DNA of 64,000 bases from Amphritea japonica ATCC BAA-1530. GTDB taxonomy: Bacteria; Pseudomonadota; Gammaproteobacteria; Pseudomonadales; Balneatricaceae. This document shows, piece after piece, positions 17,905 to 48,083 of the stretch. Location of the stretch: positions 1,364,001 to 1,428,000 of the forward strand of contig NZ_AP014545.1 of the NCBI RefSeq assembly GCF_016592435.1, in the 5' to 3' direction. Made by a program: the position numbers and the translations under genes. A model generated the notes under the pieces. That model worked only from the letters and a program-made list of their open reading frames with translations, did not search any database and was not told the origin of the DNA. Positions within the stretch are counted from its first letter, which is position 1; each line of letters begins with the position of its first letter.

Positions 17905-20048
17905 AACAGGCGGAAATCGAAGCCGGATCAGATGTGTGGAACCATCTGAAAGATGCTCGATTGGCCTGTGCTGCTGGGATTCGTTTTTCCGAGCGAAAAG
18001 ATAAAAGCGGCAGCTGGTGGTTAATTCAGCAATTACAGACTGAGCAACAATATCGTATTGACCCTTTTACATATGCTGTTCTTCAACGCCTGGATGGTGA
18101 CCTTGCTCTGGTGGAAATCTGGCGAATACTCGGTGGCAATATTCCGTGTGAAGACCTGGCTAAGCAAATAGCCCGTCTGATGGAGCTAGGGTTTGTCGTT
18201 ACAGGTGCCCGTTTTCAGCACCGACAGGGGGGTGATGGTGGTCCCCCCGGAATTCTGAGCCGGTTTGTAAATCCAGTAAGTTTTGTTTTGGTATCGTTTA
18301 ATCCGGCACAATTTTTAACGTTAATATCCCCTTTAGGCCCATTTTTATTTAACAAAGTATTTGCTGTTATATGGCTTTTGGTAATTGGTCTTGCCGGTCT
18401 GCTTTGCTATCAACATAGTACAGAGCTAACCGGTTACTTTAATGCCAGGGCGGCAGACCCCGTCTATTTAATGGGTGTTTGGTTTGTTTATCCCGTTTTG
18501 AAACTGGTGCATGAACTGGCCCATGGTCTGGCAGTTCTTGTATTAGGAGGGAGGGTTCGTAAAGCCGGTATTTTAATGCTGATTTTTATGCCAGTACCTT
18601 TTGTCGATGCCTCTGATAGTTCTCATTTCTCTAATAGATATCAGCGCATGCTTGTTTCTGCTGCGGGGGTTATGGCTGAGTTATTTCTGGCTGCTCTGGG
18701 ATTGTTTTTATGGCTATATTCTGAGCATGCGTGGTTGCAGGATATGGGCTTTGTTATTGCCCTGACAGGCTCTGTTTCTACTCTGGTATTTAATGCCAAT
18801 CCGCTACTTCGATTTGATGGTTATTACTTTTTATCAGACTGGTTGGATATACCGAATTTGGCGCTGCGCTCGCAGCGTCATGTTCAATCTTTTCTTCTGC
18901 ATAGATTGTTTGGTTTACCTGTCGGAGATGCTGGCCAGATGATACAGCCGGAGGAACGTAAGTGGTTATTGCTCTATGGCCCAGCTTCTCTTTGTTACCG
19001 GTTGTTTATCATTGCCTTCATTGTTGATCTGGTGAGTGGATATTTTTTCTGGCTGGGTTTAGTGATCGCTGTCTGGGCTTTGTGGCTTCAGTTAGTGAAG
19101 CCTCTGATTACTTTTTTTACTTACGGGAGTAAACAAGCGTCTGTATTGCAGCGAAAAAAGGGGTATTACGGCCGAATATCTATGCTATTGCTGATAGGCG
19201 CAACAGTAATCTTTATGCCCTGGCGGACTTCGGTCATTGCTGAAGCAGTGTTGATCCTGCCAGAGGAGGCAAACGTTCGTGCCACAACTGATGGCTTTGT
19301 CAGGCAGGTACTGTTTACGCCAGGAAAGCAGGTGCAAGCAGGCGAGACGCTGATTGTGTTAGAAAACCTTTCTCTGAAAGCTGACTACAGCAAACTTAGC
19401 GTTGAAATAGAGAAAGCCCGTGCAATGCATAGTACGCATTTTGCTGAAGGCTCTAATCAGGGAGCCGCTTTACTGGATAAAATAATAGCTCAGGAACAGA
19501 CTTTAGATCAGCTGGCTTTGCAAATTGATGGCCTAAAAATAATGGCTAATCAAAGCGGCACGGTTGCGATAGAGAACGGGCAGGATTTAGCAGGCCAGTA
19601 TCTGCATAAAGGTCAGCTGCTGGGATACACCTACCAGTCAGGTGAATATAGTATTCAAGCCGTGTTAGATATCGCTCGGGCCGAAGCGGTAAGATCAGGT
19701 ATAACCGAAGTTCAAGTTAGATTCGCCGATGGGGAGGTGGTCCGGCTAAGTCCGGAAAGAGTCCGGATTGTACCCCAGGCAGTCTACCGGTTACCTGACG
19801 CTGCATTAGGTAGCGCTCATGGGGGTAGTACTTTAGTTGATATACAGGATCAATCGGGTTTAAAAACAATGTATCCTGTTATTCAGTTTAATATGGAAAT
19901 GCCGATAATAGTTGAAGAAGGGATGACTACCAGCCTTATTCCTTCTAAGTCAGGTTTAGTCAGGTTTAGTCATCTACCCCGCAGTATTGGAGATGATTTG
20001 ATTGCTAACACTCGCGAGTATTGGTTTCGTAAAGTGTCAGGGTTGTGA
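17901..20048 (+). CDS. PqqD-like / M50 site-2-type protease / HlyD fusion
   Basis: About 715 residues from the ATG of the ATGA overlap (a GTG at 17886 is the alternative). Domains in order: a PqqD-like winged-helix domain (about residues 20-105, with YRIDPFTYAVLQRLDGD); a polytopic membrane domain with the zinc protease motif H204-E-L-A-H208 and the distal N300-P-L-L-R-F-D306-G-Y metal-ligand segment of M50 proteases; and, after another helix (about 430-450), a lipoyl/barrel-sandwich adaptor domain (DGFVRQVLFTPGKQVQAGE). This matches the 'peptide zinc metalloprotease' family seen in peptide and large-protein export loci. All catalytic residues are present. It probably cleaves or guides the product encoded at 21573. 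Confidence 0.88.
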   Translation: MKQAEIEAGSDVWNHLKDARLACAAGIRFSERKDKSGSWWLIQQLQTEQQYRIDPFTYAVLQRLDGDLALVEIWRILGGNIPCEDLAKQIARLMELGFVVTGARFQHRQGGDGGPPGILSRFVNPVSFVLVSFNPAQFLTLISPLGPFLFNKVFAVIWLLVIGLAGLLCYQHSTELTGYFNARAADPVYLMGVWFVYPVLKLVHELAHGLAVLVLGGRVRKAGILMLIFMPVPFVDASDSSHFSNRYQRMLVSAAGVMAELFLAALGLFLWLYSEHAWLQDMGFVIALTGSVSTLVFNANPLLRFDGYYFLSDWLDIPNLALRSQRHVQSFLLHRLFGLPVGDAGQMIQPEERKWLLLYGPASLCYRLFIIAFIVDLVSGYFFWLGLVIAVWALWLQLVKPLITFFTYGSKQASVLQRKKGYYGRISMLLLIGATVIFMPWRTSVIAEAVLILPEEANVRATTDGFVRQVLFTPGKQVQAGETLIVLENLSLKADYSKLSVEIEKARAMHSTHFAEGSNQGAALLDKIIAQEQTLDQLALQIDGLKIMANQSGTVAIENGQDLAGQYLHKGQLLGYTYQSGEYSIQAVLDIARAEAVRSGITEVQVRFADGEVVRLSPERVRIVPQAVYRLPDAALGSAHGGSTLVDIQDQSGLKTMYPVIQFNMEMPIIVEEGMTTSLIPSKSGLVRFSHLPRSIGDDLIANTREYWFRKVSGL

Positions 20049-20078
20049 ATTAACATAAAAGACAAAAAAGGATTGAAG

Positions 20079-21497
20079 TTGAGTCTACCTAAAATGTCAG
20101 TGTTACCGTTGCTTTGTATTGCGTTTACTGCAGTCGCTTCAGAGCCCGGTCCGAATGAATCCTTGCCAGCCCTGGATTGCATAATAAACCCTTCAGAAAA
20201 AATTGATCTGGGCAGTTATTCCCCCGGTATCATTGCTGAAGTGCTGGTGAAACGCGGTGACAGGGTCGTAAAAGAACAGGTGTTAGCGCGTCTGGATGAT
20301 CGTGTTGAACAGGCATCTGTTGCGCTAGCCAAGGCGCGGGCGGGAATTAAGTCGGAGTTGGAAGGCGGAAACGTTAATCTGACTTTTGATCGGTATGCGT
20401 ATCAGCGCATAACCGATTTGTATCGCACAAATGCGGTATCTCAACAGGATAAAGAGCAGGCGGAGAGATCCGTAAAACTCTCATCAACATCAGTTAAGCA
20501 GGCCAAAGAGCAGTCTCGTATACGTGAGTTGGAGTTATCCAGAGCCGAGGCGCTATTAGATCAACGGGTAATTCGGAGCCCGTTCGATGGTGTCGTGCAG
20601 CGAAATCTTAAATTTCGTGGTGAGTATGTAGACGAGCAACCGGTTGTGCAGTTGGTGTCTCTGAACCCTCTGTATGTTGAAACGATGGTGCCTATTCAGT
20701 TTTTTGGTCAACTACAGGTGAATAGCCTGGCTGAAATCTATCCGGAAGTGAACTCTGGGGAATCAATAGAAGCCCGGGTTATTGCGATTGATCCTGTGGG
20801 CGATGTTGGCAGCAGCGCGTTTGGTGTTCAACTGGAGATGGCGAATACGGACTATGCTATTCCTGCTGGTATTAAGTGCGATCTTAAGTTTACAGATCAA
20901 GTTGCAGAAACTGTGTCAGAAGAAAGTACCGTTGATGCTTCTGAAGCAGGCCAGGCGGAAGCGGTTGAAGTTCAGGCTAAGCCATCTGATGAGCGTGTCG
21001 CGGAACCTGTTACGACTATTCTTAATGGCCCTGACGTATCCAGGATGGATACCGCTAAGTCTGAAACAACAGATCTGCAGAGTGAAGTTGTAACCCCTCA
21101 GCTTGTTAAGCTTGGTCCTTATGCGGAAGAGGAGTTTAAGCAAGCAGCGGCACTGTTAGAGAATGAAGGTATTTCTTTTACCTCTGAGACAGAAGTAACG
21201 AAAGTTAAGATTGGTTATATTCTTTTGCTTAAAGGTCAAAAGGACGCGCTACATAACGCTGTCACCGATTTGAGACATCATGGCTTGAAAGATATCGAGT
21301 ATCTTAGCTATGGTGCTTATAAAGGCTCGGTTTCTCTGGGAGTGTTCTACGATGAATCCTCAGTTAATAGTAGAGAAACGTTTGTTTCAGGCTTTGGCTA
21401 TGTGCCAGAAAGGGTAACTCGCTACCGTAAACGCAGTCTGGTAACAGTTATCGCTGATGTCCGAGAGGAGGGGCGTCTTGCTTCTATAGGACTATAA
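20079..21497 (+). CDS. Periplasmic adaptor (membrane-fusion) protein with SPOR-like C-terminus
   Basis: About 472 residues from a TTG start (TTG at 20079 is 6 nt from an AGG site; TTG at 20073 is the in-frame alternative). Signal peptide near residues 1-22 (VLPLLCIAFTAVASE). Then an RND/HlyD-type adaptor with lipoyl halves (GIIAEVLVKRGDRVVKEQVL and RSPFDGVVQRNLKFRGEYV) separated by a coiled-coil hairpin (about 80-170). An acidic linker (about 270-340) leads to a C-terminal ~130-residue SPOR-like domain (KLGPYAEEEFKQAAALLENE, then VSLGVFYDE), which in other proteins binds denuded septal peptidoglycan. Probably the periplasmic part of the exporter in this operon. Confidence 0.82.
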   Translation: MSLPKMSVLPLLCIAFTAVASEPGPNESLPALDCIINPSEKIDLGSYSPGIIAEVLVKRGDRVVKEQVLARLDDRVEQASVALAKARAGIKSELEGGNVNLTFDRYAYQRITDLYRTNAVSQQDKEQAERSVKLSSTSVKQAKEQSRIRELELSRAEALLDQRVIRSPFDGVVQRNLKFRGEYVDEQPVVQLVSLNPLYVETMVPIQFFGQLQVNSLAEIYPEVNSGESIEARVIAIDPVGDVGSSAFGVQLEMANTDYAIPAGIKCDLKFTDQVAETVSEESTVDASEAGQAEAVEVQAKPSDERVAEPVTTILNGPDVSRMDTAKSETTDLQSEVVTPQLVKLGPYAEEEFKQAAALLENEGISFTSETEVTKVKIGYILLLKGQKDALHNAVTDLRHHGLKDIEYLSYGAYKGSVSLGVFYDESSVNSRETFVSGFGYVPERVTRYRKRSLVTVIADVREEGRLASIGL

Positions 21498-21572
21498 CTG
21501 CCTGTCAATCTAAGCGTTTGTATCGAATACTCAATTGCCCGGGAAGGGCGTGAGCATCATAAGGAGATGTAA

Positions 21573-24500
21573 GTGTCTCAAAAAATGCTAGTAGACAATT
21601 CACTCTCCAGCTTACTCCTTGAAAAGGCTGAGCCTCGTATATTGCTTTCTGCAGATCCGGTATCCGCCGCTTTGGCTATTGCTACCGACCTCTCTGATGA
21701 ATCAAGCACAGACACTCAGTATCACTTTGATGAGCTTTTACCCTATCTGTCTTCGACTGTTGATCCTCAGCTTCCATCATCGCCATCTTTCGACAACATG
21801 ATGACAGAGCCCTCTGATTCGGGGCTGAATTCAGTGTCTGTCGTTCGTGAAGTTATCTTTGTTGATACTCAGGTGCCTGATTACCTGAAGCTTATTAACC
21901 AGTTAGAGATCAAAGATGGTTCTAGCATCATTGTTTCTCTTAACTCTTCAGAGAATGGGCTCGATAATATCGGCCGTGTGCTTCAAAGCTATCAGAATAT
22001 CGATGCTATTCATTTGATTAGCCATGGATCTGATGGAACTCTTCAGCTCGGTGATACAACTCTAAACAATGAAAGCCTGGATACATATTCTGAAAAGTTA
22101 CTGAGTTGGCGAGACTTTCTTAATGAAGACGCGGATATTCTCATCTACGGCTGTAATCTTGCCGCCTCAGAAAACGGTGTTAGTTTTGTTAATCAACTGG
22201 CCAGTCTGACCGGGGCTGATATCGCTGCAAGTGACGATCTGACCGGAAGCAATCGTCTTGGCGGTGATTGGGAACTTGAATATAAAAGTGGGCAAGTTGA
22301 GGCTGCTCTGGTGATCTCTGAGTCGACTCAAAAGAGCTGGGAAAGTGTGTTAAATCTGATGCTGTCTACGGATGGAAACCCTAATTCCGGAGCCGCAGGG
22401 CTGGCGTCCTGGAATGCTGCTGCCGTTCTTGATTTTACGCCTACCCCCTCGGGATACGGTTCAGATACTAATGGTAGTTTGAGCTTCCTCTTTGGTTTTA
22501 CAGGGGGAGTGAATATTGATGCGCTGCATTATGTTACTGCGGATATAAGCGTGGGTACAGGGACACCGATTGATCTCTTAGCAGGAGACCTGTTGATGTC
22601 TTTGGATTCTGATGAAACCCTAAGTCTCAACAATACTCTAGACGTAAAGGCTGAAGATATATTTATTTTTCGGCCTGATACTCCAGGTGACTACTCGGCA
22701 GGTACTTTTAGTTTACTGTTTACTAATCCTACAGCTAAAGACATTACAGGCTTTACCTTAGTAGAGGACGCAACAGTGGTTGGTGATACCACTCTGCAAA
22801 AAGGTACATTCCTTTTTTCTGTTACAGGTGCCGGCGCCGATGATTTTGGGATTAACAGCTTTCAACCCGACGACCTTTCGCTATCACCATCGAATGGGAT
22901 TTCCGCTCAACTTATTGATGGCAGGGAAGAAATTGTTGCTGGAAAAGATCTCTTTCAAAATAAAATAATTGGTATTGAACTGGTAGAGAATGATTACTCT
23001 ACCGGAGGAGAAACTCTGTCAGCGGGTACCATTTTATTGACGTTTGACGGAGATAAAGGTGTTTATGCTGATAACACTCTGATTGCTGAACGTCAGGATA
23101 TTTACGCCCTGAATGTGTCTGAAACCACGCTGGTAAATGGTGCTACTGCAGCGACGGTTACTATGTTTTTTGATGGGGAAGATATTCTACTTGATGAAAA
23201 CAAAGAGAGTCTCAATGCTATTACGTTGACTGATCCGCAGAGCGCTGCAAACTCCCTTCCAACAGGGGGAGTAAGCATTGATGGTGTAGCTACAGAAGAT
23301 AACCTTCTGGCCGTCAATCTCTCAACTTTAGCGGATGCTGATGGGTTGGGAGCCTATAGCTATCAATGGCAACGAGATGGGCTAACCATCACAGGGGCTA
23401 CTACAGGAAATTATACCCTGGGGGATGCTGATGTAGGTGCTCTGATTAGTTTAGTGGTCAGTTATACCGATGGAGCAGGTAACCTCGAGGTTGTTAACAG
23501 TGGAAGTGTTGGTCCCGTAGCAAATATTAATGATGATCCGACCGTCGATAATGCCATCGCAGATCAAACAGCGACAGAAAATAGCTTATTTATTTTTACC
23601 TTTGCGGCTGACGCCTTTGGCGACGTCGATGCCGGAGACACGCTGAGTTACACTGCGCAGCTTGTCGGTGGTGGGGCTCTACCTAGTTGGCTCGTTTTTG
23701 TCCCAAGTGCGCGTACCTTTGGTGGCTTTCCGTTAAATGGGGATGTAGGTACGCTTAGCATCGAGGTCATCGCTGATGATGGTAATGGCGGCACACCCGC
23801 GGTGGACAGCTTTGACTTGGTGGTCGGTAATATCAATAACGACCCCACCGTTGACAATGCCATTACTAATCAAAGTGCAACAGAAGACAGTCTGTTCAGC
23901 TTTACCTTTGCGGCCAATACCTTCGGTGATGTCGATGTTGGCGATACCCTGACTTATAGGGCGCAGCTGGCAGGCGGTGGCACTTTACCGACCTGGCTCA
24001 GTTTTAACCCGTTGACCCGCACCTTTGAAGGCACGCCACTTAATGGGGATGTCGGCACGCTGAGTATCGAACTGATCGCCGATGACGGTAATGGCGGCAC
24101 AGCTGCGATAGAAAGCTTCGATATTGTGGTGGCGAATACCAATGATGACCCTACCGTCGATAATGCCATTACTAATCAAAGTGCAACAGAAGACAGTCTG
24201 TTCAGCTTTACCTTTGCGGCCAATACCTTCGGTGATGTCGATGTTGGCGATACCCTGAGCTACAGCGCACAACTGGCCGGTGGGGGAGCATTACCCAGCT
24301 GGCTGAGCTTTAACCCGGTGACCCGCACCTTTGAGGGCATACCCTTAAATGCCGATGTCGGCACCCTAAGCATCGAACTGATCGCGGATGACAGCAATGG
24401 TGGAACAGCTGCGATAGAAAGCTTCGATATTGTGGTGACGAATACCAATGATGATCCTACCGTCGATAATGCCATTACTAATCAGAGTGCAACGGAAGAC

Positions 24501-27215
24501 AGTCTGTTCAGCTTTACCTTTGCGGCCAATACCTTCGGTGATGTCGATGTTGGCGATACCCTGAGCTACAGCGCACAACTGGCCGGTGGGGGAGCATTAC
24601 CCACCTGGCTGAGTTTTAACCCGGTGACCCGCACCTTTGAGGGCACGCCCCTCAATGGGGATGTCGGCACGCTGAGTATTGAACTGATCGCCGATGACGG
24701 TAATGGCGGCACAGCTGCGATAGAAAGCTTCGATATTGTGGTGGCGAATACCAATGATGATCCTACTGTCGATAATGCCATTAATAATCAGAGTGCAACG
24801 GAAGACAGTTTGTTCAGCTTTACCTTTGCGGCCAACACGTTCGGTGATGTCGATGTTGGCGATACCCTGAGCTACAGCGCACAACTGGCCGGTGGGGGAG
24901 CATTACCGACCTGGCTGAGCTTTAATCCGGTTATTCGCACCTTTGAGGGCACGCCCTTGAATGCCGATGTAGGTACCCTAAGCATCGAACTGATCGCGGA
25001 TGACAGTAATGGTGGAACAGCTGCGATAGAAAACTTTGATATTGTGGTGACGAATACCAATGATGACCCTACCGTCGATAATGTCATTACTGACCAGAGT
25101 GCAACGGAAGACAGTTTGTTCAGCTTTACCTTTGCGGCCAATACCTTCGGTGATGTCGATGTTGGCGATACCCTGAGCTACAGCGCACAACTGGCCGGTG
25201 GGGGAGTATTACCGACCTGGCTGAGCTTTAATCCGGTGACCCGCACCTTTGAGGGCACGCCCTTGAATGCCGATGTAGGTACCCTAAGCATTGAATTGAT
25301 CGCGGATGACAGTAATGGTGGAACAGCTGCGATAGAAAGCTTCGATATTGTGGTGGCGAATACCAATGATGATCCCACCGTCGATAATGCCATTACTGAT
25401 CAGAGTGCAACGGAAGACAGTTTGTTTAGCTATACCTTTGCGGCCAATTCCTTCGGTGATGTCGATGTTGGCGACACCCTGAGCTACAGCGCACAACTGG
25501 CCGGTGGGGGAGTATTACCGACCTGGCTGAGCTTTAATCCGGTGACCCGCACCTTTGAGGGCATACCCTTAAATGCCGATGTCGGCACCCTAAGCATCGA
25601 ACTGATCGCGGATGACAGCAATGGTGGAACAGCTGCGATAGAAAGCTTCGATATTGTGGTGGCGAATACCAATGATGATCCTACCGTCGATAATGCCATT
25701 ACTGATCAGAGTGCAACGGAAGACAGTTTGTTCAGCTTTACCTTTGCGGCCAATACCTTCGGTGATGTCGATGTTGGCGATACCCTGAGCTACAGCGCAC
25801 AACTGGCCGGTGGGGGAGTATTACCGACCTGGCTGAGCTTTAATCCGGTGACCCGCACCTTTGAGGGCATACCCTTAAATGCCGATGTCGGCACCCTAAG
25901 CATCGAACTGATCGCGGATGACAGCAATGGTGGAACAGCTGCGATAGAAAGCTTCGATATTGTGGTGGCGAATACCAATGATGATCCTACCGTCGATAAT
26001 GCCATTACTGATCAGAGTGCAACGGAAGACAGTCTGTTCAGCTTTACCTTTGCGGCCAATACCTTCGGTGATGTCGATGTTGGCGATACCCTGAGCTACA
26101 GCGCACAACTGGCCGGTGGGGGAGCATTACCCAGCTGGCTGAGCTTTAACCCGGTGACCCGCACCTTTGAGGGCATACCCTTAAATGCTGATGTCGGCAC
26201 CCTAAGCATCGAACTGATCGCGGATGACAGCAATGGCGGCACGCCTGCGGTAGAAAGCTTTAATCTTGAGGTTGTGCCAAATGAAGCGCCCGTTGGGGAT
26301 GTCTCAATAACTGGTTCTCCAGTTATAGGTCAGGTATTGACGCTGGATAATACGATTACTGACGCGGATGGTCTGGGGCCTTTTAGTTATCAATGGTACA
26401 GAGATGGTTTGCCAATTCCGGGTGCTACAGCAGCAGAATATACCTCCACTGCTTTGGATAGTGGTGCAGATATTAATGTTATTGTCAGCTATACAGACGC
26501 ATTAGGTAATGATGAACAAGTCGTTAGTGCTTTAGTTAGTATAGCGGTACCCGTGGAAGATATTATTTTAGTAGAGCCTGTCGAAAATGAGCCAGACGAC
26601 CCTGATGATGAAGAGAGTTCTGTTTTAGCAGTTTCTGCTGATGCTGACGAACCCGCGATAGCGTCTGAAGTGGTTTCTGTAACACCGGAGGCCGTCACCG
26701 TTCAATTTCATTCGCCTAAGCTAATTTCAAGTCTTGTCGATCAAGCTTATGAACTACCTTCAACATTGAATGAAGCAATTAAGCACCAGGTCTCTGTGTC
26801 ACAACTTCAACCTATATTAAGTCTGCTTGCCGAGCCGATACAGTTACAAAGCTTAGGGGGCTTTATAGATGGGTTGGAAAATTTAGAAAAAGGAGCTGAT
26901 GAGCAAGTAGCTCTTGAAACAGCCCTGATAGGGGGATCAATTGCGATCTCTTCAGGGTTGTCTGTGGGCTATGTTATCTGGCTTGCCCGGAGTGGCGTTT
27001 TGTTGAGCTCTGTTTTAACCGCATTGCCAGCCTGGCGCTTCATTGATCCTTTGCCGATATTGGCAACACTCTCGTCTGATGATGATTCGAAGAAAAAGGA
27101 TATGGCGGATAACGAATCTCTGGATGACATTGTGGACCATGAAAAAGAACCAGCTGAGTCAGATGACGAAGATGATTTAGACGATTCGGATAACACAGGA
27201 AAAGATAAAACATGA
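21573..27215 (+). CDS. Giant LEPR-XLL/DUF4347 protein with nine cadherin-like repeats
   Basis: 1880 residues from GTG at 21573, which follows a strong AAGGAG site. Domains in order: an N-terminal LEPR-XLL-like motif (A19-E-P-R-I-L-L-S-A-D-P29) and no classical signal peptide; DUF4347 (about 88-255) with a conserved SH151G and YGC194N that recall the His/Cys dyad of caspase-like proteases; an unknown beta-rich region (256-560); an Ig-like domain (about 565-648); nine 102-residue dystroglycan-type cadherin-like repeats (651-1568) with Ca2+-type acidic motifs; a second Ig-like domain (about 1572-1645); a conserved C-terminal hydrophobic segment (about 1788-1822) and a highly acidic tail. Probably a cell-surface adhesin or matrix protein. 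Its stop overlaps the kinase start (ATGA). Confidence 0.88.
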   Translation: MSQKMLVDNSLSSLLLEKAEPRILLSADPVSAALAIATDLSDESSTDTQYHFDELLPYLSSTVDPQLPSSPSFDNMMTEPSDSGLNSVSVVREVIFVDTQVPDYLKLINQLEIKDGSSIIVSLNSSENGLDNIGRVLQSYQNIDAIHLISHGSDGTLQLGDTTLNNESLDTYSEKLLSWRDFLNEDADILIYGCNLAASENGVSFVNQLASLTGADIAASDDLTGSNRLGGDWELEYKSGQVEAALVISESTQKSWESVLNLMLSTDGNPNSGAAGLASWNAAAVLDFTPTPSGYGSDTNGSLSFLFGFTGGVNIDALHYVTADISVGTGTPIDLLAGDLLMSLDSDETLSLNNTLDVKAEDIFIFRPDTPGDYSAGTFSLLFTNPTAKDITGFTLVEDATVVGDTTLQKGTFLFSVTGAGADDFGINSFQPDDLSLSPSNGISAQLIDGREEIVAGKDLFQNKIIGIELVENDYSTGGETLSAGTILLTFDGDKGVYADNTLIAERQDIYALNVSETTLVNGATAATVTMFFDGEDILLDENKESLNAITLTDPQSAANSLPTGGVSIDGVATEDNLLAVNLSTLADADGLGAYSYQWQRDGLTITGATTGNYTLGDADVGALISLVVSYTDGAGNLEVVNSGSVGPVANINDDPTVDNAIADQTATENSLFIFTFAADAFGDVDAGDTLSYTAQLVGGGALPSWLVFVPSARTFGGFPLNGDVGTLSIEVIADDGNGGTPAVDSFDLVVGNINNDPTVDNAITNQSATEDSLFSFTFAANTFGDVDVGDTLTYRAQLAGGGTLPTWLSFNPLTRTFEGTPLNGDVGTLSIELIADDGNGGTAAIESFDIVVANTNDDPTVDNAITNQSATEDSLFSFTFAANTFGDVDVGDTLSYSAQLAGGGALPSWLSFNPVTRTFEGIPLNADVGTLSIELIADDSNGGTAAIESFDIVVTNTNDDPTVDNAITNQSATEDSLFSFTFAANTFGDVDVGDTLSYSAQLAGGGALPTWLSFNPVTRTFEGTPLNGDVGTLSIELIADDGNGGTAAIESFDIVVANTNDDPTVDNAINNQSATEDSLFSFTFAANTFGDVDVGDTLSYSAQLAGGGALPTWLSFNPVIRTFEGTPLNADVGTLSIELIADDSNGGTAAIENFDIVVTNTNDDPTVDNVITDQSATEDSLFSFTFAANTFGDVDVGDTLSYSAQLAGGGVLPTWLSFNPVTRTFEGTPLNADVGTLSIELIADDSNGGTAAIESFDIVVANTNDDPTVDNAITDQSATEDSLFSYTFAANSFGDVDVGDTLSYSAQLAGGGVLPTWLSFNPVTRTFEGIPLNADVGTLSIELIADDSNGGTAAIESFDIVVANTNDDPTVDNAITDQSATEDSLFSFTFAANTFGDVDVGDTLSYSAQLAGGGVLPTWLSFNPVTRTFEGIPLNADVGTLSIELIADDSNGGTAAIESFDIVVANTNDDPTVDNAITDQSATEDSLFSFTFAANTFGDVDVGDTLSYSAQLAGGGALPSWLSFNPVTRTFEGIPLNADVGTLSIELIADDSNGGTPAVESFNLEVVPNEAPVGDVSITGSPVIGQVLTLDNTITDADGLGPFSYQWYRDGLPIPGATAAEYTSTALDSGADINVIVSYTDALGNDEQVVSALVSIAVPVEDIILVEPVENEPDDPDDEESSVLAVSADADEPAIASEVVSVTPEAVTVQFHSPKLISSLVDQAYELPSTLNEAIKHQVSVSQLQPILSLLAEPIQLQSLGGFIDGLENLEKGADEQVALETALIGGSIAISSGLSVGYVIWLARSGVLLSSVLTALPAWRFIDPLPILATLSSDDDSKKKDMADNESLDDIVDHEKEPAESDDEDDLDDSDNTGKDKT
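23523..26276 (+). repeat. Nine tandem 306-bp repeats inside the giant gene
   Basis: Nine in-frame units of 306 bp, each encoding one 102-residue cadherin-like domain beginning at DDPTVDNAI and ending near ESFDIVV. The first unit is divergent, units 2-9 are almost identical in DNA as well as protein, which points to recent duplication or gene conversion. The last unit reads on into VVPNEAP of the following Ig-like domain. Confidence 0.93.
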
Positions 27216-30100
27216 GCTGGTTAAAACGCTTATTCTCAGTTCGTAGTACGACCAGCAGGATCGCTTTTGGTCAGGTTAGTATGCTGATTAGCGTGACTTT
27301 AGTTGCCATTATACTGGGAATACTGCCTGACTTTTTAGGTACTCGCTTAAAAGACCGGGTATCGCTGGCAGAAGCGATTGCTGCGAATAGCTCTGTTTTA
27401 ATTACACAAACGGATCTGATTCGACTGGAAAGTGTTTTGAATCTGGTTGTCGAGCGAAATGACGAGTTGTTATCTGCGGGAGTTCGTCGGGCTGATAATC
27501 GTCTGGTGGTGAATATCTCTAATCATCAAACAGATTGGAACAAAGGTCTCAATGAAGAGGCTATTGATCAACAGATGATTGTTCCAATTATTGCAGGCCG
27601 CCAACAGTGGGGAGCCTTAGAACTCAAGTTTAAACCGCTTTACGGTGAAGGAATTCTGGGCTTTTATCATCGTCCTACTGTTCAATTTATTCTTTTCTGT
27701 GGTGTGATCCTTTATCTGCTTTATTTTTTATACCTAACCAAAATGTTAAAACAACTCGATCCATCTCAGGCAGTACCTGATCGTGTACGTGCCGCATTGG
27801 ACACGATGGCGGAAGGCTTGATTGTACTGGATCGTAAAGCCCAGATAGTACTGGCGAATCAGGCTTTTTCGGATCTATTGAGCAGATCATCATCTTCTCT
27901 AATGGGATTTGAAGTTGATAAATTGCCCTGGCAACTCAAAGAAGACGCTTCAACCGATGATTTTCCATGGTTAGCTGCGATGAATACCGGTAAGGCTGAA
28001 ATGAATCAGACGGTTCGATTGGAACTTGAGGACGGGGTGCGAACTTTCATGGTGAATTGCTCCCCTGTCCTGGCTGATGAAGGTAAAGCGGGCGGTGTGT
28101 TGGTTAGCTTTGATGATATTACACAACTGGAAGAGCAGGAAGTGGAGCTGCGCCGTTCTAAAGCTGAAGCTGAACAAGCAAACCGGGCTAAGAGTGATTT
28201 CCTCGCGAATATGAGCCATGAAATTCGTACGCCTATGAATGCGATTCTTGGTTTTACGGAGGCACTTAAGCGAGGTTACGGTAAGAATGAACAGAATAAT
28301 GAGCACTATCTGAGTACTATTTTGGTTAACGGTGAACACCTTCTTAATCTTATTAACGATATTCTCGATCTGTCTAAAGTTGAGGCGGGTCATCTCGATG
28401 TAGAATCGGTTGCCCTCAAACCCTATCAGATTATCAGCGAAGTGATTCAGGTTATGAGTGTTAAAGCTCAGGAGAAGGGAATCGCGCTTGCTTATCGTCC
28501 GGAAGGGAGTATCCCGGAAACGCTGATGTCAGATCCAGCCCGTTTCAGGCAGATAATCACTAATCTGGTAGGTAATGCGATTAAGTTTACAGAGGCAGGG
28601 GGAGTGACTGTTGTAACCCGCATGGATACACAACAGAATAAATTGATAACTGAAGTCAGGGATACTGGCATTGGAATGACCGCAGAGCAGGCAATTTCTG
28701 TATTTGACCCTTTTGTTCAGGCGGATAGCTCAATTACTCGCCGTTTTGGCGGGACGGGTCTGGGCCTGGCTATTAGTAAAAAGTTTGCTGAGGCCATGGA
28801 GGGAGAGATTTACGCCAGAAGTGAGCCTGAAAAAGGTAGTCAGTTTTATTTAGAGCTTAATGTTAAGACAGATGGTCCCGTTGCGCTAATTAGTGCAGAA
28901 GAGATTAGTGAATTAAAGCAAAGCGAAGCAACACTGAATGTTGCGCGTTGGAAATTTCCTGATGCCAGTGTACTAGTGGTTGATGACGGAATAGAAAATC
29001 GAGAGTTAATAAGCCTGGTTTTGTCAGAACAGGGTATTAAAACAGACGGGGCCGCTGACGGTGTTGAGGCATTAGAAAAGCTGGCGGTTAACCAATATGA
29101 TCTGGTTCTGATGGATGTACAGATGCCGAGAATGGATGGCTATACTGCTGCTCGAGAAATCCGTAAGAAAGAGATGACTCTTCCGGTGATTGCACTAACT
29201 GCTCACGCAATGAAAGGGATAGAACAAAAATGTCTTGATTCAGGATACTCAGGCTATATGAGTAAGCCAATTAATATCGATAAACTGATTCAGTTACTAG
29301 TTCATGAGTTAGATGCTGAGCCGCTGAGCGAAGCCTGTAATGATGATCGGGCATTAGATAATGGAACAGTGGGAGTCTCTTATCATTCGTCTTCGCCCAA
29401 TCAATCAATATCAGCGTTGACATTAGACGATAGCTCTCAACTTTCCCCTCTTTATTCTGAGCTGGGGGCCTCAAATCCTAAATTTGAAAAAATTGTCGCA
29501 CGCTTTATTGTGCGGGTAAACGATGTTTATAAGCAGATACAGAGTTGTTCTACGCAACAGGATTTTACTGTTCTCAGGGCGCATGCGCACTGGTTGAAAG
29601 GCTCGGCAGGGTCCGTTGGATTTCCTGGGCTGACTGATTTAGCAGTAAAACTGGAGCAGACAGCCATAAAACAGGAGGTTGCTGGAACTGAGATGTTGGT
29701 CGCTGCTATCGGTGTAATGATAAAGCGCATCAATCTGGCGAAAGATAATCCAAATGGCATTAATAGTCTTTCGACGCAGACAGACAACCAATGGGTTATA
29801 CCTGAAACAGTCACCTCTGAGTTAGCAAGTCAGGGGGAGAAATTCAGGTTAATAGCAGTCAAGTTTGTAGCTAAACTTGAACATCAAATAACTCAGATGA
29901 AACAGGAATTAGACGGTAATGATTTTAGCGCGTTAGCTGATCTTGCGCATTGGCTGAAAGGCGCAGGAGGCTCTGTTGGTTTTCCGGTGTTCACAGAGAT
30001 AGCAAAAGCGCTTGAAAAAGCGGCACAAGCAGAAAACGGACCGGAATGTGAGACATTGATAGCCACTGTTGATGAAATACATAAAAGGATCAATCTATGA
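27212..30100 (+). CDS. Hybrid sensor histidine kinase with two HPt domains
   Basis: 962 residues, ATG overlapping the giant gene's stop (ATGA). Order: membrane helix (about 17-40), short periplasmic loop, second helix (about 155-172), PAS domain (about 190-305), HisKA with H336 in MSHEIRTPMN, HATPase with DTGIGM and FGGTGLGLAIS, receiver with phospho-acceptor D635 (LVLMDVQMP), then two HPt domains with AHWLKG motifs at H793 and H913. It is a self-contained phosphorelay kinase. The likely outlet is the receiver of the REC-GGDEF-EAL protein encoded 28 bp downstream. The two HPt domains are similar enough to suggest a duplication. Confidence 0.93.
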   Translation: MSWLKRLFSVRSTTSRIAFGQVSMLISVTLVAIILGILPDFLGTRLKDRVSLAEAIAANSSVLITQTDLIRLESVLNLVVERNDELLSAGVRRADNRLVVNISNHQTDWNKGLNEEAIDQQMIVPIIAGRQQWGALELKFKPLYGEGILGFYHRPTVQFILFCGVILYLLYFLYLTKMLKQLDPSQAVPDRVRAALDTMAEGLIVLDRKAQIVLANQAFSDLLSRSSSSLMGFEVDKLPWQLKEDASTDDFPWLAAMNTGKAEMNQTVRLELEDGVRTFMVNCSPVLADEGKAGGVLVSFDDITQLEEQEVELRRSKAEAEQANRAKSDFLANMSHEIRTPMNAILGFTEALKRGYGKNEQNNEHYLSTILVNGEHLLNLINDILDLSKVEAGHLDVESVALKPYQIISEVIQVMSVKAQEKGIALAYRPEGSIPETLMSDPARFRQIITNLVGNAIKFTEAGGVTVVTRMDTQQNKLITEVRDTGIGMTAEQAISVFDPFVQADSSITRRFGGTGLGLAISKKFAEAMEGEIYARSEPEKGSQFYLELNVKTDGPVALISAEEISELKQSEATLNVARWKFPDASVLVVDDGIENRELISLVLSEQGIKTDGAADGVEALEKLAVNQYDLVLMDVQMPRMDGYTAAREIRKKEMTLPVIALTAHAMKGIEQKCLDSGYSGYMSKPINIDKLIQLLVHELDAEPLSEACNDDRALDNGTVGVSYHSSSPNQSISALTLDDSSQLSPLYSELGASNPKFEKIVARFIVRVNDVYKQIQSCSTQQDFTVLRAHAHWLKGSAGSVGFPGLTDLAVKLEQTAIKQEVAGTEMLVAAIGVMIKRINLAKDNPNGINSLSTQTDNQWVIPETVTSELASQGEKFRLIAVKFVAKLEHQITQMKQELDGNDFSALADLAHWLKGAGGSVGFPVFTEIAKALEKAAQAENGPECETLIATVDEIHKRINL

Positions 30101-30128
30101 TCATGCTATCTGATTTGGAAAGCACGTT

Positions 30129-31907
30129 ATGAATGAATCAAATAAACTAATAGCTAATCCAAACGCACGAAGCGAGTTTCAAAATGCGCTAATTATGATG
30201 GTAGATGATGAACCTATCATGATGGAAATCGTACAGGCCCATCTTGAAGATGCCGGCTATAGTGAGTTTATCAGTGTAGAAGATTCCCGGGAGGCGTTCG
30301 ATGTACTGACGCATCGAAGACCGGATATTCTGTTTCTGGATCTTGTGATGCCTGAAGTGAGTGGTTTTGATGTACTGCGCCGTATTCGTGACTACGATGA
30401 ATTTGCTTATCTACCGGTAATTGTCCTGACTTCATCAACGGACTCCGCCTCTAAACTTAAAGCGCTTGAATTGGGTGCTACGGATTTTCTATCTAAACCG
30501 GTAGATGCCAGTGAGTTGAAGCTTCGATTACGCAATACTCTGACGGTGAAAGCCTATGTTGACCAGTTAGCGTCGTCAGACGCATTAACCGGCCTGCCAA
30601 ACCGAAAGTCAATACATGAGAAAATTATCTGGTCACTAAAATATGATCAGATGCATAGTTATAAAACGGCGTTATTGAATATTGGTCTCGATCGCTTTGG
30701 GGAAATTAACGAATCTTTAGGGGTCCATAATGGAGACCTGCTTTTAAAGCAGGTTGCACAACGAATCAGATCAGTCATCGATCAACGAAATAAGTTACTG
30801 GCGACAAATCACCGAGAAACGGAATTGACCATAGCGCGTTTATCAGGAGATGAATTTGGTGTACTTGTTCCTTCATTTTATCAGGATGAGCATGCGGCTT
30901 CGTTAGCGACACAGCTGAGAAGTGAATTAGGGAAAGTTTACCGAATAGATAATCATGACCTGTATGTATCAGCTTCAATCGGCATTGCAGTAGCGCCTGA
31001 AGATGGATTATTAAGTGATGACCTTATAAAAGCCGCAGGTACGGCAATGCGTCAGGCCAAGCAAGGAGGGGCAACCAACGGCTTCTGTTTTTACTCAGGC
31101 ACTTCAAGTTCAGACTTGCAGGAGAAACTTGAACTAGAAACTGACCTGCATACCGCTTTGGAAAATGATGAGTTAATGCTGTTTTATCAACCTAAAGTCG
31201 ATTTGATAACAAAGCAGGTTACCGCTGCTGAAGCATTAGTTCGATGGAATCACCCGACGAAAGGATTTATCTCCCCTGTACAGTTTATTCCGCTGGCTGA
31301 AGAGAACGGCTTGATTTTATCGATCGGTGACTGGGTATTGAATGAAGCATGTAAACAGGCGGAAATCTGGCGGCGCGCTTCAATGCCCGATATCAAAGTA
31401 TCGGTAAATGTATCTGGCCAACAGTTTAAAGAGGCTACCTATCAGGCCAGGGTTCAAGAAGCGTTGAAGAACTCAGAATTACCGCCATCATTACTGATGC
31501 TGGAAATGACAGAGAGTCTGGCAATGAGTGATGTTGAGTCAAGCATTGAGCTTTTTGAAGGATTGAAAACGTTAGGGGTTGGTTTATCTATTGATGATTT
31601 CGGTACCGGTTATTCTTCTTTGAGTTATCTGAAAAAATTTCCGTTGGATGAGCTAAAAGTGGATCGGTCTTTTATTACAGGGATTCCGGAAAATAAAGAT
31701 GAGATTCAGTTAGTACAAGCGATTATCGCGATGGCTAAAGCGTTAAGGTTATCTGTCGTTATTGAGGGGGTAGAAACTGCTGCTCAGCTTAACCTGTTAC
31801 AAGCGACTCAAAGTGACTTGATTCAGGGGTTCCTTTTCAGTAAACCTCTGCCTGCAGATGAGTTTTCTGAGTATGTGATGAGTAATGTTTCACAGGCTTC
31901 GTTCTAA
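30129..31907 (+). CDS. REC-GGDEF-EAL response regulator, probable c-di-GMP phosphodiesterase
   Basis: 592 residues: receiver domain (about 15-135, phospho-acceptor D71 in FLDLVMP, KPVD Lys), a GGDEF domain whose signature reads S239-G-D-E-F instead of GGDEF, and an EAL domain with E368-A-L and DDFGTGYSSL plus KVDRSFI, all the usual catalytic residues. The changed first Gly suggests a weak or lost cyclase activity, leaving an active phosphodiesterase that linearises c-di-GMP. It closes the seven-gene operon and is the likely phosphorylation target of the kinase before it. Confidence 0.93.
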   Translation: MNESNKLIANPNARSEFQNALIMMVDDEPIMMEIVQAHLEDAGYSEFISVEDSREAFDVLTHRRPDILFLDLVMPEVSGFDVLRRIRDYDEFAYLPVIVLTSSTDSASKLKALELGATDFLSKPVDASELKLRLRNTLTVKAYVDQLASSDALTGLPNRKSIHEKIIWSLKYDQMHSYKTALLNIGLDRFGEINESLGVHNGDLLLKQVAQRIRSVIDQRNKLLATNHRETELTIARLSGDEFGVLVPSFYQDEHAASLATQLRSELGKVYRIDNHDLYVSASIGIAVAPEDGLLSDDLIKAAGTAMRQAKQGGATNGFCFYSGTSSSDLQEKLELETDLHTALENDELMLFYQPKVDLITKQVTAAEALVRWNHPTKGFISPVQFIPLAEENGLILSIGDWVLNEACKQAEIWRRASMPDIKVSVNVSGQQFKEATYQARVQEALKNSELPPSLLMLEMTESLAMSDVESSIELFEGLKTLGVGLSIDDFGTGYSSLSYLKKFPLDELKVDRSFITGIPENKDEIQLVQAIIAMAKALRLSVVIEGVETAAQLNLLQATQSDLIQGFLFSKPLPADEFSEYVMSNVSQASF

Positions 31908-43707: not shown

Positions 43708-45009
43708 ATGCCGCATACTGAGTTAGGTCAAAAGCGTAACGAAACTCCAGTTTCATTGGCGGTCATTGGCTCGGGTATCATTGGGCTTTGTACCGCCCTT
43801 GAAGCACAGCGAAAGGGTTGCCGGGTAACTCTGTTTGATCGAGATGAACCGGGTCTGGGTGCTTCTTTCGGTAATGCCGGTTTTCTGGCGACGGAATTGA
43901 TAGAGCCTCTATCCAATCCGCAAACGTTACGCTCCGCACTAATGCTTTGGTTAAACCCAAATGGCCCTCTATCGCTGCCGTTACAGTATTTAATTAAGAT
44001 AGCCCCATGGCTGGTCAAATTTATAAAAGCAGCCAGACCAAAATCCCTTGCAAGTAGCCGTCACGGATTGATTCAATTAAACAAAAATTCTATAGATGCA
44101 TGGCAGCGCTGTCTGGATGATATTGATGCCAGTGAGCAGATTGTTAACTCGGGCTATTTGTTGGTTTGGGAGTCATCTTCAAAACTGGCTGACGCACTTA
44201 AACATCAAGACTGGTTAAGTGAAAATGGGATAGCAACTGAACTGGTTCAGGGAAGACGATTGGTTGAACTGGAACCCGCGCTGAAAGAAACAGTCAGTCA
44301 TGCGCTTTTTTTTCCTGAAGCCTGTCGGGTTAGAGAACCCTATGAATTATGTAGATTACTTTTTAATGTTTTTATGGCGCGTGGAGGTGCCTTTGTCCAA
44401 CAGGAAGTAAAACAAATTACACCTAGTGCCGATCAGGTTTCTCTTAAGACCGCTGCTGATGAGTTAGATGCTGAAATCGAACAACTTTACACATTTAAGA
44501 AGACGATTGTTTGTGCCGGTGCCTGGAGTAAAAAACTGTTAGAGGGTGTTGGAGTACATGTGCCCCTCGAGGCAGAGCGGGGCTATCATCTGACGCTTCC
44601 TGAGGCTGGTTCAATGTTACAACACTCAATCGGTTCGGCAGAGCGTAAGTTTGTTATGGGGCCACTGGATAGCGGGTTAAGAGTTGTGGGTATTACTCAG
44701 TTAGGGGGGCTGAAACTAGGGCCGTTCAAACACTGTTTTAATATTTTGCGTCACAATAGTTCTAAACTGTTACCTGAACTGGAAGACCCATCTTTGAGTG
44801 TGACAGAGTGGATGGGGCATCGACCAACCCTGCCGGATTCATTACCTGTTATCGATCAACACCCCTTACACCCGCAGTTGCTGTTTGCCTTTGGAAATCA
44901 ACACTTAGGTTTAACTCAGGCAGCCTTGACGGCTGAACTTATTATTCAATTGATGCAAGAAGATACCTCGAAAATTGACCTGTCACCTTATCGTGTCGAT
45001 CGATTTTAG
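43708..45009 (+). CDS. DadA-like FAD-dependent amino-acid oxidoreductase
   Basis: 433 residues. N-terminal dinucleotide fold (LAVIGSGIIGLCTALEAQRK, then DRDEPGLGASFGNAG), central DAO-type substrate domain (AERGYHLTLP, MGPLDSGLRVVG), and a C-terminal MGHRPTLPDSLPVIDQHP plus FAFGNQHLGLTQA that binds FAD. It matches D-amino-acid dehydrogenase DadA and its hydroxyproline-dehydrogenase relatives, which pass electrons to the respiratory chain. It lies 33 bp after the cyclodeaminase-family gene in the same operon. Confidence 0.92.
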   Translation: MPHTELGQKRNETPVSLAVIGSGIIGLCTALEAQRKGCRVTLFDRDEPGLGASFGNAGFLATELIEPLSNPQTLRSALMLWLNPNGPLSLPLQYLIKIAPWLVKFIKAARPKSLASSRHGLIQLNKNSIDAWQRCLDDIDASEQIVNSGYLLVWESSSKLADALKHQDWLSENGIATELVQGRRLVELEPALKETVSHALFFPEACRVREPYELCRLLFNVFMARGGAFVQQEVKQITPSADQVSLKTAADELDAEIEQLYTFKKTIVCAGAWSKKLLEGVGVHVPLEAERGYHLTLPEAGSMLQHSIGSAERKFVMGPLDSGLRVVGITQLGGLKLGPFKHCFNILRHNSSKLLPELEDPSLSVTEWMGHRPTLPDSLPVIDQHPLHPQLLFAFGNQHLGLTQAALTAELIIQLMQEDTSKIDLSPYRVDRF

Positions 45010-45527
45010 ATGGTCGCTCAGATAGTTTTACCCGATAGATTGTTGAGCAGTTCAGTTGGATGTGAGATCAGGCTTTAATCCAGCTTTTTTCATCAAAGTT
45101 GATGATGCAATATGCATAGTGAGATCTTTGGTATCTGTAAATCAAGGAGGGAGCTTTCATCAAATGTTGAGAGTTCAGTTACTAATTATCCAGTCTAGTG
45201 TAGTTAAAAAGAATATAAAAAATTCTATCTTGTTTCCCTTACATACAGTAGCGAGCATACTGAGCAGTATATTTACGAAAGAGGTTCAAAGAGTTTAATT
45301 CTAACGTTAGAGTTTCACTGCGGTCAGGAGGGAAAGGATCTTGATGTAGGGTATATCAGTAAAACTACTTTCTACGACCGACGCAGAATAACAGAAGAAT
45401 AGTCGGAAAATGCCGGTAAAGCCTGATCAGTTCAATTAATAACCAGTGATCATATATTAAAAGCCAGGCGAATCAGAGCTTAGGTGCAATGACATTTGTA
45501 ATGATTTACAAGTATATAGAGGAAAAT
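45010..45527. other. A+T-rich intergenic region without a supported gene
   Basis: About 520 bp, visibly richer in A+T than its neighbours by eye. An 80-codon plus frame (45056-45298) has no clear ribosome-binding site and no recognisable content. Together with the damaged CHAT gene after it, this may be the edge of an acquired segment, but no repeat, integrase or att site was found. Confidence 0.45.
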
Positions 45528-46830
45528 ATGAAGCTGGGTATACGTTTAGCCGTTTTTGTATTATTGGCACAATACTATTGCGGTATTTCAGCATTCGCAG
45601 ATGAATTTAATGATTCTGTTAAAGGCTTTAATGATGCAGCGTCTATGCATCGTGGCGAATACGAGGTTTTAATAAATTCTCGAGGTCTGGCGCTTGGTGC
45701 AGATGAACGTAATCTCATCCTGAACCTTGAAGTAGTGATAGATAGGTTGGCAGGATGGGATGGGACTCTATTATTTTATCATCATGCGGATAGTATTTTA
45801 AAAATCTGGGCTATTACGGGAGACGGTTCCTTCGCTTGGGAAAAAAGTTGAAATCTCAGAAGAGAACTTGAAGAAATTAATTGATGGATATAGAAATGGA
45901 ATAGGTAGTTTATGGGGCCAAATAGAAAGAGCGCCTAAGCCTAGAGGAATAAAGCGAATAAAAGATGGTAGTGACTATCAGAGCGTGAGTAGAGCAAAGA
46001 TTAGCCAGGTGCTTTTCCCTGGGGATATTGAAGTCTTATTGGAAACCTCAAGCAGTATAATGATTGTTCCTTCCTTAAGCATTGGAAGTGTCCCATTCAG
46101 CTCACTAGAGCTTCCTCATTCAAAAAGAATACTTTCAGACATTACTTCAGTGACAGTATTGCCAAGTTTGTATGATACAAACCTATCTGTACCCATGTAT
46201 GGTTCAGATGATATTGAAGCGCTTGTTATAGGTAACCCGAAATTTAGTGATGATCCTGATTGGGTATTACCACAGTTACCAGGGGCAGAAAAAGAAGCGA
46301 GATTGATTTCCGAGATGTTTAACTCAACCCTTCTCGTAGGCGCTGAGGCGACAAAAGATAATATTATTTCAAGAATTGAAACGGCAAAGATTATTTATTT
46401 TGCAACCCATGGCGTCGCCAGTGCAATTAATCCTCTCGATGAGAGCTTTTTAGCAGTATCTGGCACTAATAAGAGACAGGCTCGCTTAACGGCAAGAGAA
46501 ATTCAGAATATGAATTTAGACGCAGAACTGGTTGTGTTGAGTGCTTGTCAAACCGGTCTAGGTGGTACGGAGGATGCTGGAATAGTAGGCTTAGCCAGAG
46601 CGTTTAAAATAGCTGGCGCCAAGCAAGTTGTTGTTAGTTTGTGGAATGTAGATGATTCAGTCACTGCTGAATTGATGCTGGAGTTTATGAATAAGTTTAT
46701 TGGGAATGGTTTTGATGCTGCCCAATCTTTACGGTTATCAATGAATAAAATTAAGGAGCTTTACCCCTCCCCTGCATATTGGGCACCATTTGTTGTTATA
46801 AATGGTAAGGGTTTCATATCCTCTAATTGA
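45528..46830 (+). pseudogene. CHAT-domain protease gene split by a frameshift in an A6 run
   Basis: A first frame from 45528 (ATG behind GAGGAAA) has a signal peptide (MKLGIRLAVFVLLAQYYCGISAFA) and stops at 45851. The second frame, open from about 45868 to 46830, holds the CHAT domain: His in YFATHG (46408-46410) and Cys in LSACQTG (46546-46548), the catalytic dyad, followed by GLARAFKIAGAKQVVVSLW. Removing one A from the run of six at 45841-45846 joins the frames without a break (...SFAW-EKVEISEENLKKL...), giving one ~430-residue protein. So it is a recent loss-of-function, a phase-variable tract or a sequencing error. CHAT proteases are caspase-like; the exported form suggests a periplasmic target. 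Confidence 0.8.
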
Positions 46831-47270
46831 GAATATAGTCATTTATACGACTTAGGTTAGAAAGGATTCAGCGTTAAGTTGATAACCACGATTCTAAATG
46901 TGGGCGCTGAATCGACCAGCTTTTCGTATACATCTAGTACTTTGACGTGGACTGACCTTGCTAGCACTTGGTTTTATCTCGTTATTACGGTCAGTCAGTT
47001 AAGAGCAGTGGACTTACGCCATATAGTGAACATTATAATTTCTTACTAATAAGCCTAAATTAAACCAGCATGACTTACATGAGTTCAGCTCTGTATAGAC
47101 AGAAATGCAAGTGATCTCGATGTAAAATTGAAACTGCCAATTTATTTGTTTCACTACAACTGTCTACAGACCTTACGGCATATGGGATTTCAGGTTTCGC
47201 GTTAACATGAGATGAAATCTCAAACTCAATTTGAAACAATACAATCTTATGTAAATTACTTTGAACAGTA

Positions 47271-47298
47271 TTGCATTGTACAAAAACAGACCTATAAT
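47271..47298 (+). promoter_or_regulatory. sigma70-type promoter of the tetR gene
   Basis: TTGCAT at 47271-47276 and a perfect TATAAT at 47293-47298 with a 16-bp spacer, 33 bp before the ATG at 47331. The -10 box lies within the palindromic operator, so binding there would block RNA polymerase. Confidence 0.6.
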
Positions 47299-47317
47299 GA
47301 CGATTCGTCATTATAGG
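47291..47317. promoter_or_regulatory. Palindromic TetR operator, copy 1
   Basis: Perfect 12-bp arms (CCTATAATGACG and CGTCATTATAGG) around ATT. It overlaps the -10 box of the tetR promoter, implying autorepression. The same core recurs at 48141-48166 before the transporter operon. Confidence 0.8.
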
Positions 47318-47330
47318 TAGATAGCCCCGA

Positions 47331-48083
47331 ATGAGTCCACGTCAGATTGATCAAAGCACCCTGGTAGAGCGAGAGAACGTATTGCTTGATGCCGCTATGT
47401 TGCTGATTAAACAGCAAGGTGTAGAAGGGCTGACAATGGATAAGCTGGTAAAACAGGTGTCTTTTTCTAAAGGTACGATATACAACCACTTTACCTGTAA
47501 AGAAGATTTGATGCTGGGGTTGTGTAATAGGGGAATGGGTCTTCTTGGGGCGCTCTTTACGCGTGCTGGAAAATTTGAAGGTACAACGCGAGAGCGAATT
47601 ATCGCAATTCATTTTGCTTATCTGCTCTATTCCCGTTTATACCCAATGATGTTTATGCTGGTGATCTCGGCGAAATCACCCGGGGTAACAGAAAAGGCAT
47701 CAACGCGTAATCGTGAGATGCATCTGCAGCTTGAGGCGAGTCTGACTACCGGCATTATCAATATTATCTGTCAGGCGCTAACGGAAGGGGAGTGTAACAA
47801 TCCTAACAATCTGGCGCCTGAGCAAATTGCGTTTGCTAATTGGTCATCGGCATTTGGCACGATTGCATTACTGAGCAAGGATTTTGAGCAGTGTGGTATT
47901 CGTGCACAGATGCAGAGTGAGCAGGCGCTGCTAGCCAATGTGAATCTAATGTTGGATGGTCTGCAATGGCAACCTTTATTTTCTGAGTTTGATTACACGC
48001 AAACGCTGGAGCGACTTCGATGCGAAGTTTTTGCACCAGAGATAGCGTTATTAGCCGCTCAGGAACAGGCGCTCCAGTGTTGA
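47331..48083 (+). CDS. TetR-family transcriptional regulator
   Basis: 250 residues. N-terminal helix-turn-helix (about residues 20-65: LLIKQQGVEGLTMDKLVKQ and FSKGTIYNHFTCKEDLM) and a ligand-binding C-terminal domain longer than usual. It has its own palindromic operator over its promoter, and an imperfect copy stands before the MMPL transporter gene 90 bp downstream, so it most likely represses both itself and the export operon until an effector (a lipid or drug-like compound) binds. Confidence 0.92.
   Translation: MSPRQIDQSTLVERENVLLDAAMLLIKQQGVEGLTMDKLVKQVSFSKGTIYNHFTCKEDLMLGLCNRGMGLLGALFTRAGKFEGTTRERIIAIHFAYLLYSRLYPMMFMLVISAKSPGVTEKASTRNREMHLQLEASLTTGIINIICQALTEGECNNPNNLAPEQIAFANWSSAFGTIALLSKDFEQCGIRAQMQSEQALLANVNLMLDGLQWQPLFSEFDYTQTLERLRCEVFAPEIALLAAQEQALQC

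Follow-up and report, generated by a model that had tools for sequence, protein, structure and literature searches.

The window, by which we mean the whole stretch of 64,000 nucleotides of Amphritea japonica ATCC BAA-1530 analysed here, contains a gene whose CHAT protease domain is not encoded in the frame of its start codon. Is this gene truly broken in the organism and, if so, does the break reflect a simple loss or a means of controlling the protease?

Direct reading of the window gives the letters GGG at 45838-45840 and AAAAAA at 45841-45846, followed by GTTGA. The start frame opens at ATG 45528, with a Shine-Dalgarno-like GAGG shortly 5′ of it, and is closed right past the G3A6 tract by the TGA at 45849-45851. 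A second frame, +1 relative to the start frame, is free of stops from 45802 to its stop codon at 46828-46830. Since the start frame ends at 45851 and the second opens at 45802, the lesion must lie inside a box of 50 nucleotides. Shuffling the same bases 2000 times never gave an open run as long as the second frame, which is thus not due to chance. Beyond the box, the CHAT frame carries no further lesion up to 46830. As had been proposed, deletion of one A at 45841-45846 does restore a single frame. Other single-base changes would do so too, and the sequence alone therefore does not designate the tract as the mutation site. When the protein is aligned with four intact relatives, the lesion can be placed more closely, at the AWEK/V junction, which falls at the A tract. 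The features are collected in Table 1.

Table 1. Features of the interrupted CHAT gene and of the stretch that carries it (positions in the window)
Feature	Coordinates	Strand	Evidence
Gene part 1: start, signal peptide (by eye), ~80 residues, first CHAT-module strands	45528..45851	+	Residues match four intact relatives
Box holding the frame change	45802..45851	+	Stops of both frames
G3A6 tract at the frame break	45838..45846	+	Sequence
Gene part 2, +1 frame: CHAT domain, His (FATHG) and Cys (SACQTG)	45847..46830	+	Pfam, alignment
A+T-rich stretch flanked by the DadA-like and the TetR-like gene; no counterpart in G008, the nearest congener covering the site	45010..47209	.	G+C, congener comparison

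Reading through the break gives a joined product of 433 residues, composed of a signal peptide (by eye), ~80 residues and the CHAT domain. The second frame matches Pfam CHAT (PF12770) over the full length of the domain (183.5 bits for a cut-off of 24, E 8.1e-54), and the sequence, the two frames and this match together bear out the original prediction, a CHAT protease gene interrupted at G3A6. The first 107 residues alone have zero Pfam matches, and no TPR region is seen in the joined product. The catalytic residues His294 and Cys340, numbered on the joined product, are the same in each of the five aligned rows. The complete single-frame product expected of a CHAT protease is absent here, the frame being broken within the box. 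A profile search of solved structures matched one sequence, that of entries 8rot and 8rw5. The signal peptide, also part of the original prediction, is recognised by eye, and the product is apparently exported. An intact copy would most probably work as an exported cysteine protease. The defence or cell-suicide role suggested for the gene is unsupported: PADLOC gave no match in seven proteins (the CHAT frame, the relative L071 and five neighbouring proteins), and the neighbours of the relatives differ.

To see whether the two frames belong to one gene, we turned to other genomes (390 sampled in the order, 369 in the class and 398 in the phylum; the samples may overlap, and for the class and phylum a match had to reach E 1e-25 to be listed). 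Relatives covering most of the product were found in four genomes (G140, G623, G825 and G919). Their open frames count 440-444 codons in three cases and 551 in G140, where the last ~438 codons align. All four have about the length and layout of the joined product and, by eye, a hydrophobic start. Identity to the window product is 45% for L071, 38% for L072, 33% for L082 and 34% for L015, in an alignment continuous across the break. As for a recent pseudogene, the gene is intact in its relatives, the frame running unbroken through the break site in four of four of this type. In a tree of 52 CHAT domains (54 rows, two of which were dropped for being under 180 residues; L025, L032 and some weaker or duplicate loci are omitted), the five rows that we had labelled 'short', the window gene included, form a clade with support 100/99. 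L097, of 519 codons and labelled 'mid', falls outside it. Single-frame relatives of the same layout, grouped in a supported clade, therefore indicate that the window locus is one gene with one small lesion.

A conserved operon was also considered for the short clade and rejected, the ORFs around the four relatives being dissimilar (names by eye). A caspase-like gene adjoins the short CHAT gene in G140, a TPR-CHAT-like gene lies ~2 kb from it in G825 and a glutamate-cysteine-ligase-like gene is found in the neighbourhood in G919 (all by eye), with nothing comparable in G623.

How old is the break? A random substitution in the second part creates a stop in 4.8% of cases, and under a simple model the chance of finding no stop at 5% divergence is ~0.10, and smaller when indels are counted. 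The second part is stop-free and its dyad is intact, so the break is either recent or not real. Of the earlier suggestion that it is 'recent or reversible', the first half stands, no other lesion being present, unless the break is an error; the second, a reversible switch, is unsupported.

The distribution of the gene was examined with the second part as query. It is absent from all 16 other congeners; the sole match in the genus (G008) sits in a frame of 1742 codons. At the family level, 7 of 116 genomes match, the source genome included, and the six others do so in frames of 1742-3052 codons or, for G029, by one weak match in a frame of 544 codons. The gene is carried by one of 54 genomes in the family of G623 and by one of four in that of G825, and no close relative was found in these two families. 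Two scans of viral contigs gave no relative, and a scan of genome contigs with a single protein gave one distant relative. In plasmid searches all matches were under 60% identity and, among the matches listed, many are annotated as TPR proteins. Absence in the congeners and patchiness elsewhere point to a dispensable gene, so that a null mutation would be cheap.

The genomic setting is A+T-rich, as had been noted: G+C is 0.401 in the gene and 0.365 and 0.364 in its flanks, against 0.455 in the window. We compared the neighbouring transporter locus in 11 congeners, of which G008 is the closest by this transporter (96%) and the nearest one covering the site. The DadA-like and TetR-like genes both lie beside the transporter in five of them (G008, G001, G003, G010 and G014). 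The site is not covered in G009, whose contig starts within the TetR gene, and in the five other congeners the stretch compared gave no DadA match. By tblastn coordinates, the DadA-TetR spacer measures 163-366 bp in four congeners, 2.7 kb in G003 and 2321 bp here. In G003 the spacer (L066:7111-9300) is occupied by a 729-codon gene that resembles a GGDEF/EAL regulator by eye; what is inserted there thus varies from species to species. Mobile-element ends were not seen, the repeats being short two-copy matches only, and no second copy of the 5′ flank of the CHAT gene exists in the genome. Rfam gave nothing within 44500-47700 up to E 0.1, the window has no tRNA, and promoter-like sites are no commoner than in shuffles.

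Two further observations concern the window. A perfect palindrome of 14+1+14 bp (47290-47318) lies directly upstream of the TetR-like gene and is probably its operator; a GACGAATCGTC-like palindrome core recurs in the DadA-TetR spacers of G008, G001, G010 and G014. At 15539-31907, a cluster encodes two HlyD-like proteins, an M50 peptidase-like protein, c-di-GMP regulators and a protein of 1880 residues that combines DUF4347 with nine Ig-like repeats; the cluster may specify an exported adhesin and a dedicated exporter.

The reading that we consider most likely is that an accessory CHAT gene was recently inactivated by a real mutation. A short exported CHAT protease gene devoid of TPR, found within the genus only in this lineage as far as searched, would have been inactivated very recently by one small frame-changing insertion at or beside the A run, and in its present state would yield an exported fragment of 107 residues without the protease core. 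We infer here that the extra base is truly in the organism, that the product is exported and that the intact copy is an active protease.

Its main competitor, possible and clearly less likely, is a sequencing or assembly error, for which the original prediction had also left room, the gene being intact in the organism and coding for an ordinary short exported CHAT protein. The lone homopolymer indel in an otherwise perfect frame speaks for an error, and isolated BLAST-validated frameshifts are expected to be mostly sequencing errors according to a passage of Antonov et al. 2013 (PMC3711429). We surveyed frame breaks by comparing the proteins of G008 with two samples of the source genome (244 kb and 200 kb, ~0.44 Mb), a comparable gene being one with at least 60% identity and at least 70% coverage (141 + 141 genes). 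In the two samples, 139 and 140 genes matched in one piece; one gene was split over two frames and two gave partial matches, which sets the frame-break rate in conserved genes at ~0.4% (1/282). The split gene (G000:C1 ~1513655; L114 ~5655), which we take to be rlmJ-like, carries a surplus base within a G7 run, and its G008 copy is in frame. This second homopolymer frame break among 282 comparable genes again favours an error. Against it, the assembly is otherwise clean, being a single contig of completeness 100 in which 279 of the 282 genes match in one piece, and real mutation is supported by the 278 homopolymers of 6-8 that are correct inside these 279 intact conserved genes, 227 of them A/T. 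Real mutation is preferred because genuine frame loss is generally more frequent in accessory genes than the rate found for conserved genes. As a side observation, the single-contig congener G016 has its orthologues of the neighbouring genes fragmented over several frames (L069, G016:C1:2702000-2721900), a sign of an error-rich assembly, unlike that of the window's genome.

The original prediction also saw in the homopolymer an on/off switch of the protease. That the tract is a contingency (phase-variation) switch, operated by slipped-strand mispairing, appears improbable and this claim found no support. The lesion does lie at the A run, and runs are present in frame at the same place in two relatives (A8 in L071, A6 in L072). 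However, these follow from Lys, Glu and Ile codons: of 2000 trials in which synonymous codons were shuffled, 1715 and 1215 produced such a run again for the two relatives, which gives no sign of selection for the tract, and L082 and L015 (genomes G919 and G140) have no run at the site. An A6 is moreover short and common, with 64 A/T runs of at least six in 64 kb, ~1 per kb; a phase-variable gene would be expected to break at a tandem repeat or an extended homopolymer, and only A6 is found. We give equally little credence to a broader version, in which the short exported CHAT proteases would be a sparse mobile clade in which A-rich Lys codons ahead of the protease core serve as a mutational switch; strains would drift on and off, and this genome would have been caught off.

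Programmed +1 ribosomal frameshifting or transcriptional slippage, by which the full protein would be made from the broken frame, is more doubtful still. The site is A-rich with a UGA directly after it, but the CHAT frame is +1 (or -2) and the -1 frame closes at 45871, so the protein is out of reach of standard -1 slippage at A6G. None of the four relatives needs a shift, all being single-frame, and a shift site is thus not conserved. As regards transcriptional slippage, six A stand here against the approximately nine A or T needed in many genomes: parts of Baranov et al. 2005 (PMC1088944) describe, for many genomes, selection against A/T runs at a length of ~nine nucleotides and regard eight A as non-slippery, and a passage of Antonov et al. 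2013 (PMC3711429) gives slippage sites as eight or longer. The earlier suggestion of +1 recoding therefore found no support. Least likely of all is a split into two products, the first short and exported, the second a cytoplasmic CHAT protein with an internal start such as the in-frame TTG 45868, which has a purine-rich stretch upstream, as both parts are fused in one protein in the relatives and the internal product would miss the export signal and the first strands of the module.

With recent inactivation as the preferred reading, the frame break itself is ordinary. More useful is a by-product of the analysis, a small clade of caspase-like proteases that lack TPR, are apparently exported and occur widely scattered, and for which we found no description, under this or another name, in the literature searched. 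Should the intact members work beyond the cytoplasm, it would be worthwhile to test what they cleave and what triggers them.

Compared with the CHAT family (PF12770, caspase-like clan), the window gene keeps the profile score and the His and Cys; it differs in being frame-broken, short, apparently exported and without a visible TPR region. Its dyad is of the same type as that of the TPR-CHAT protein Csx29 of type III-E CRISPR (Craspase), a His-Cys pair being described for TPR-CHAT in a passage of PMC9729208. The Csx29 NCBIfam profile matches weakly over the catalytic part (25.5 bits, far under the family cut-off of 300) and, unlike Csx29, the window product has no TPR part and is apparently exported; no Cas7-11 or other CRISPR component was noticed in its vicinity. 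The short exported CHAT proteins of G623, G825, G919 and G140 share its layout and length, but all four are intact, and their gene neighbours differ among themselves and from those of the window gene. The nearest larger group in the tree, weakly supported (92/81), is that of the giant CHAT proteins found in this genome and in related ones, with frames of 1742-3052 codons; a copy in the source genome (C1:2373533-2374321) shares 37% identity with the joined product along residues 167-424 of the latter, these giants being far larger than the product of the short clade.
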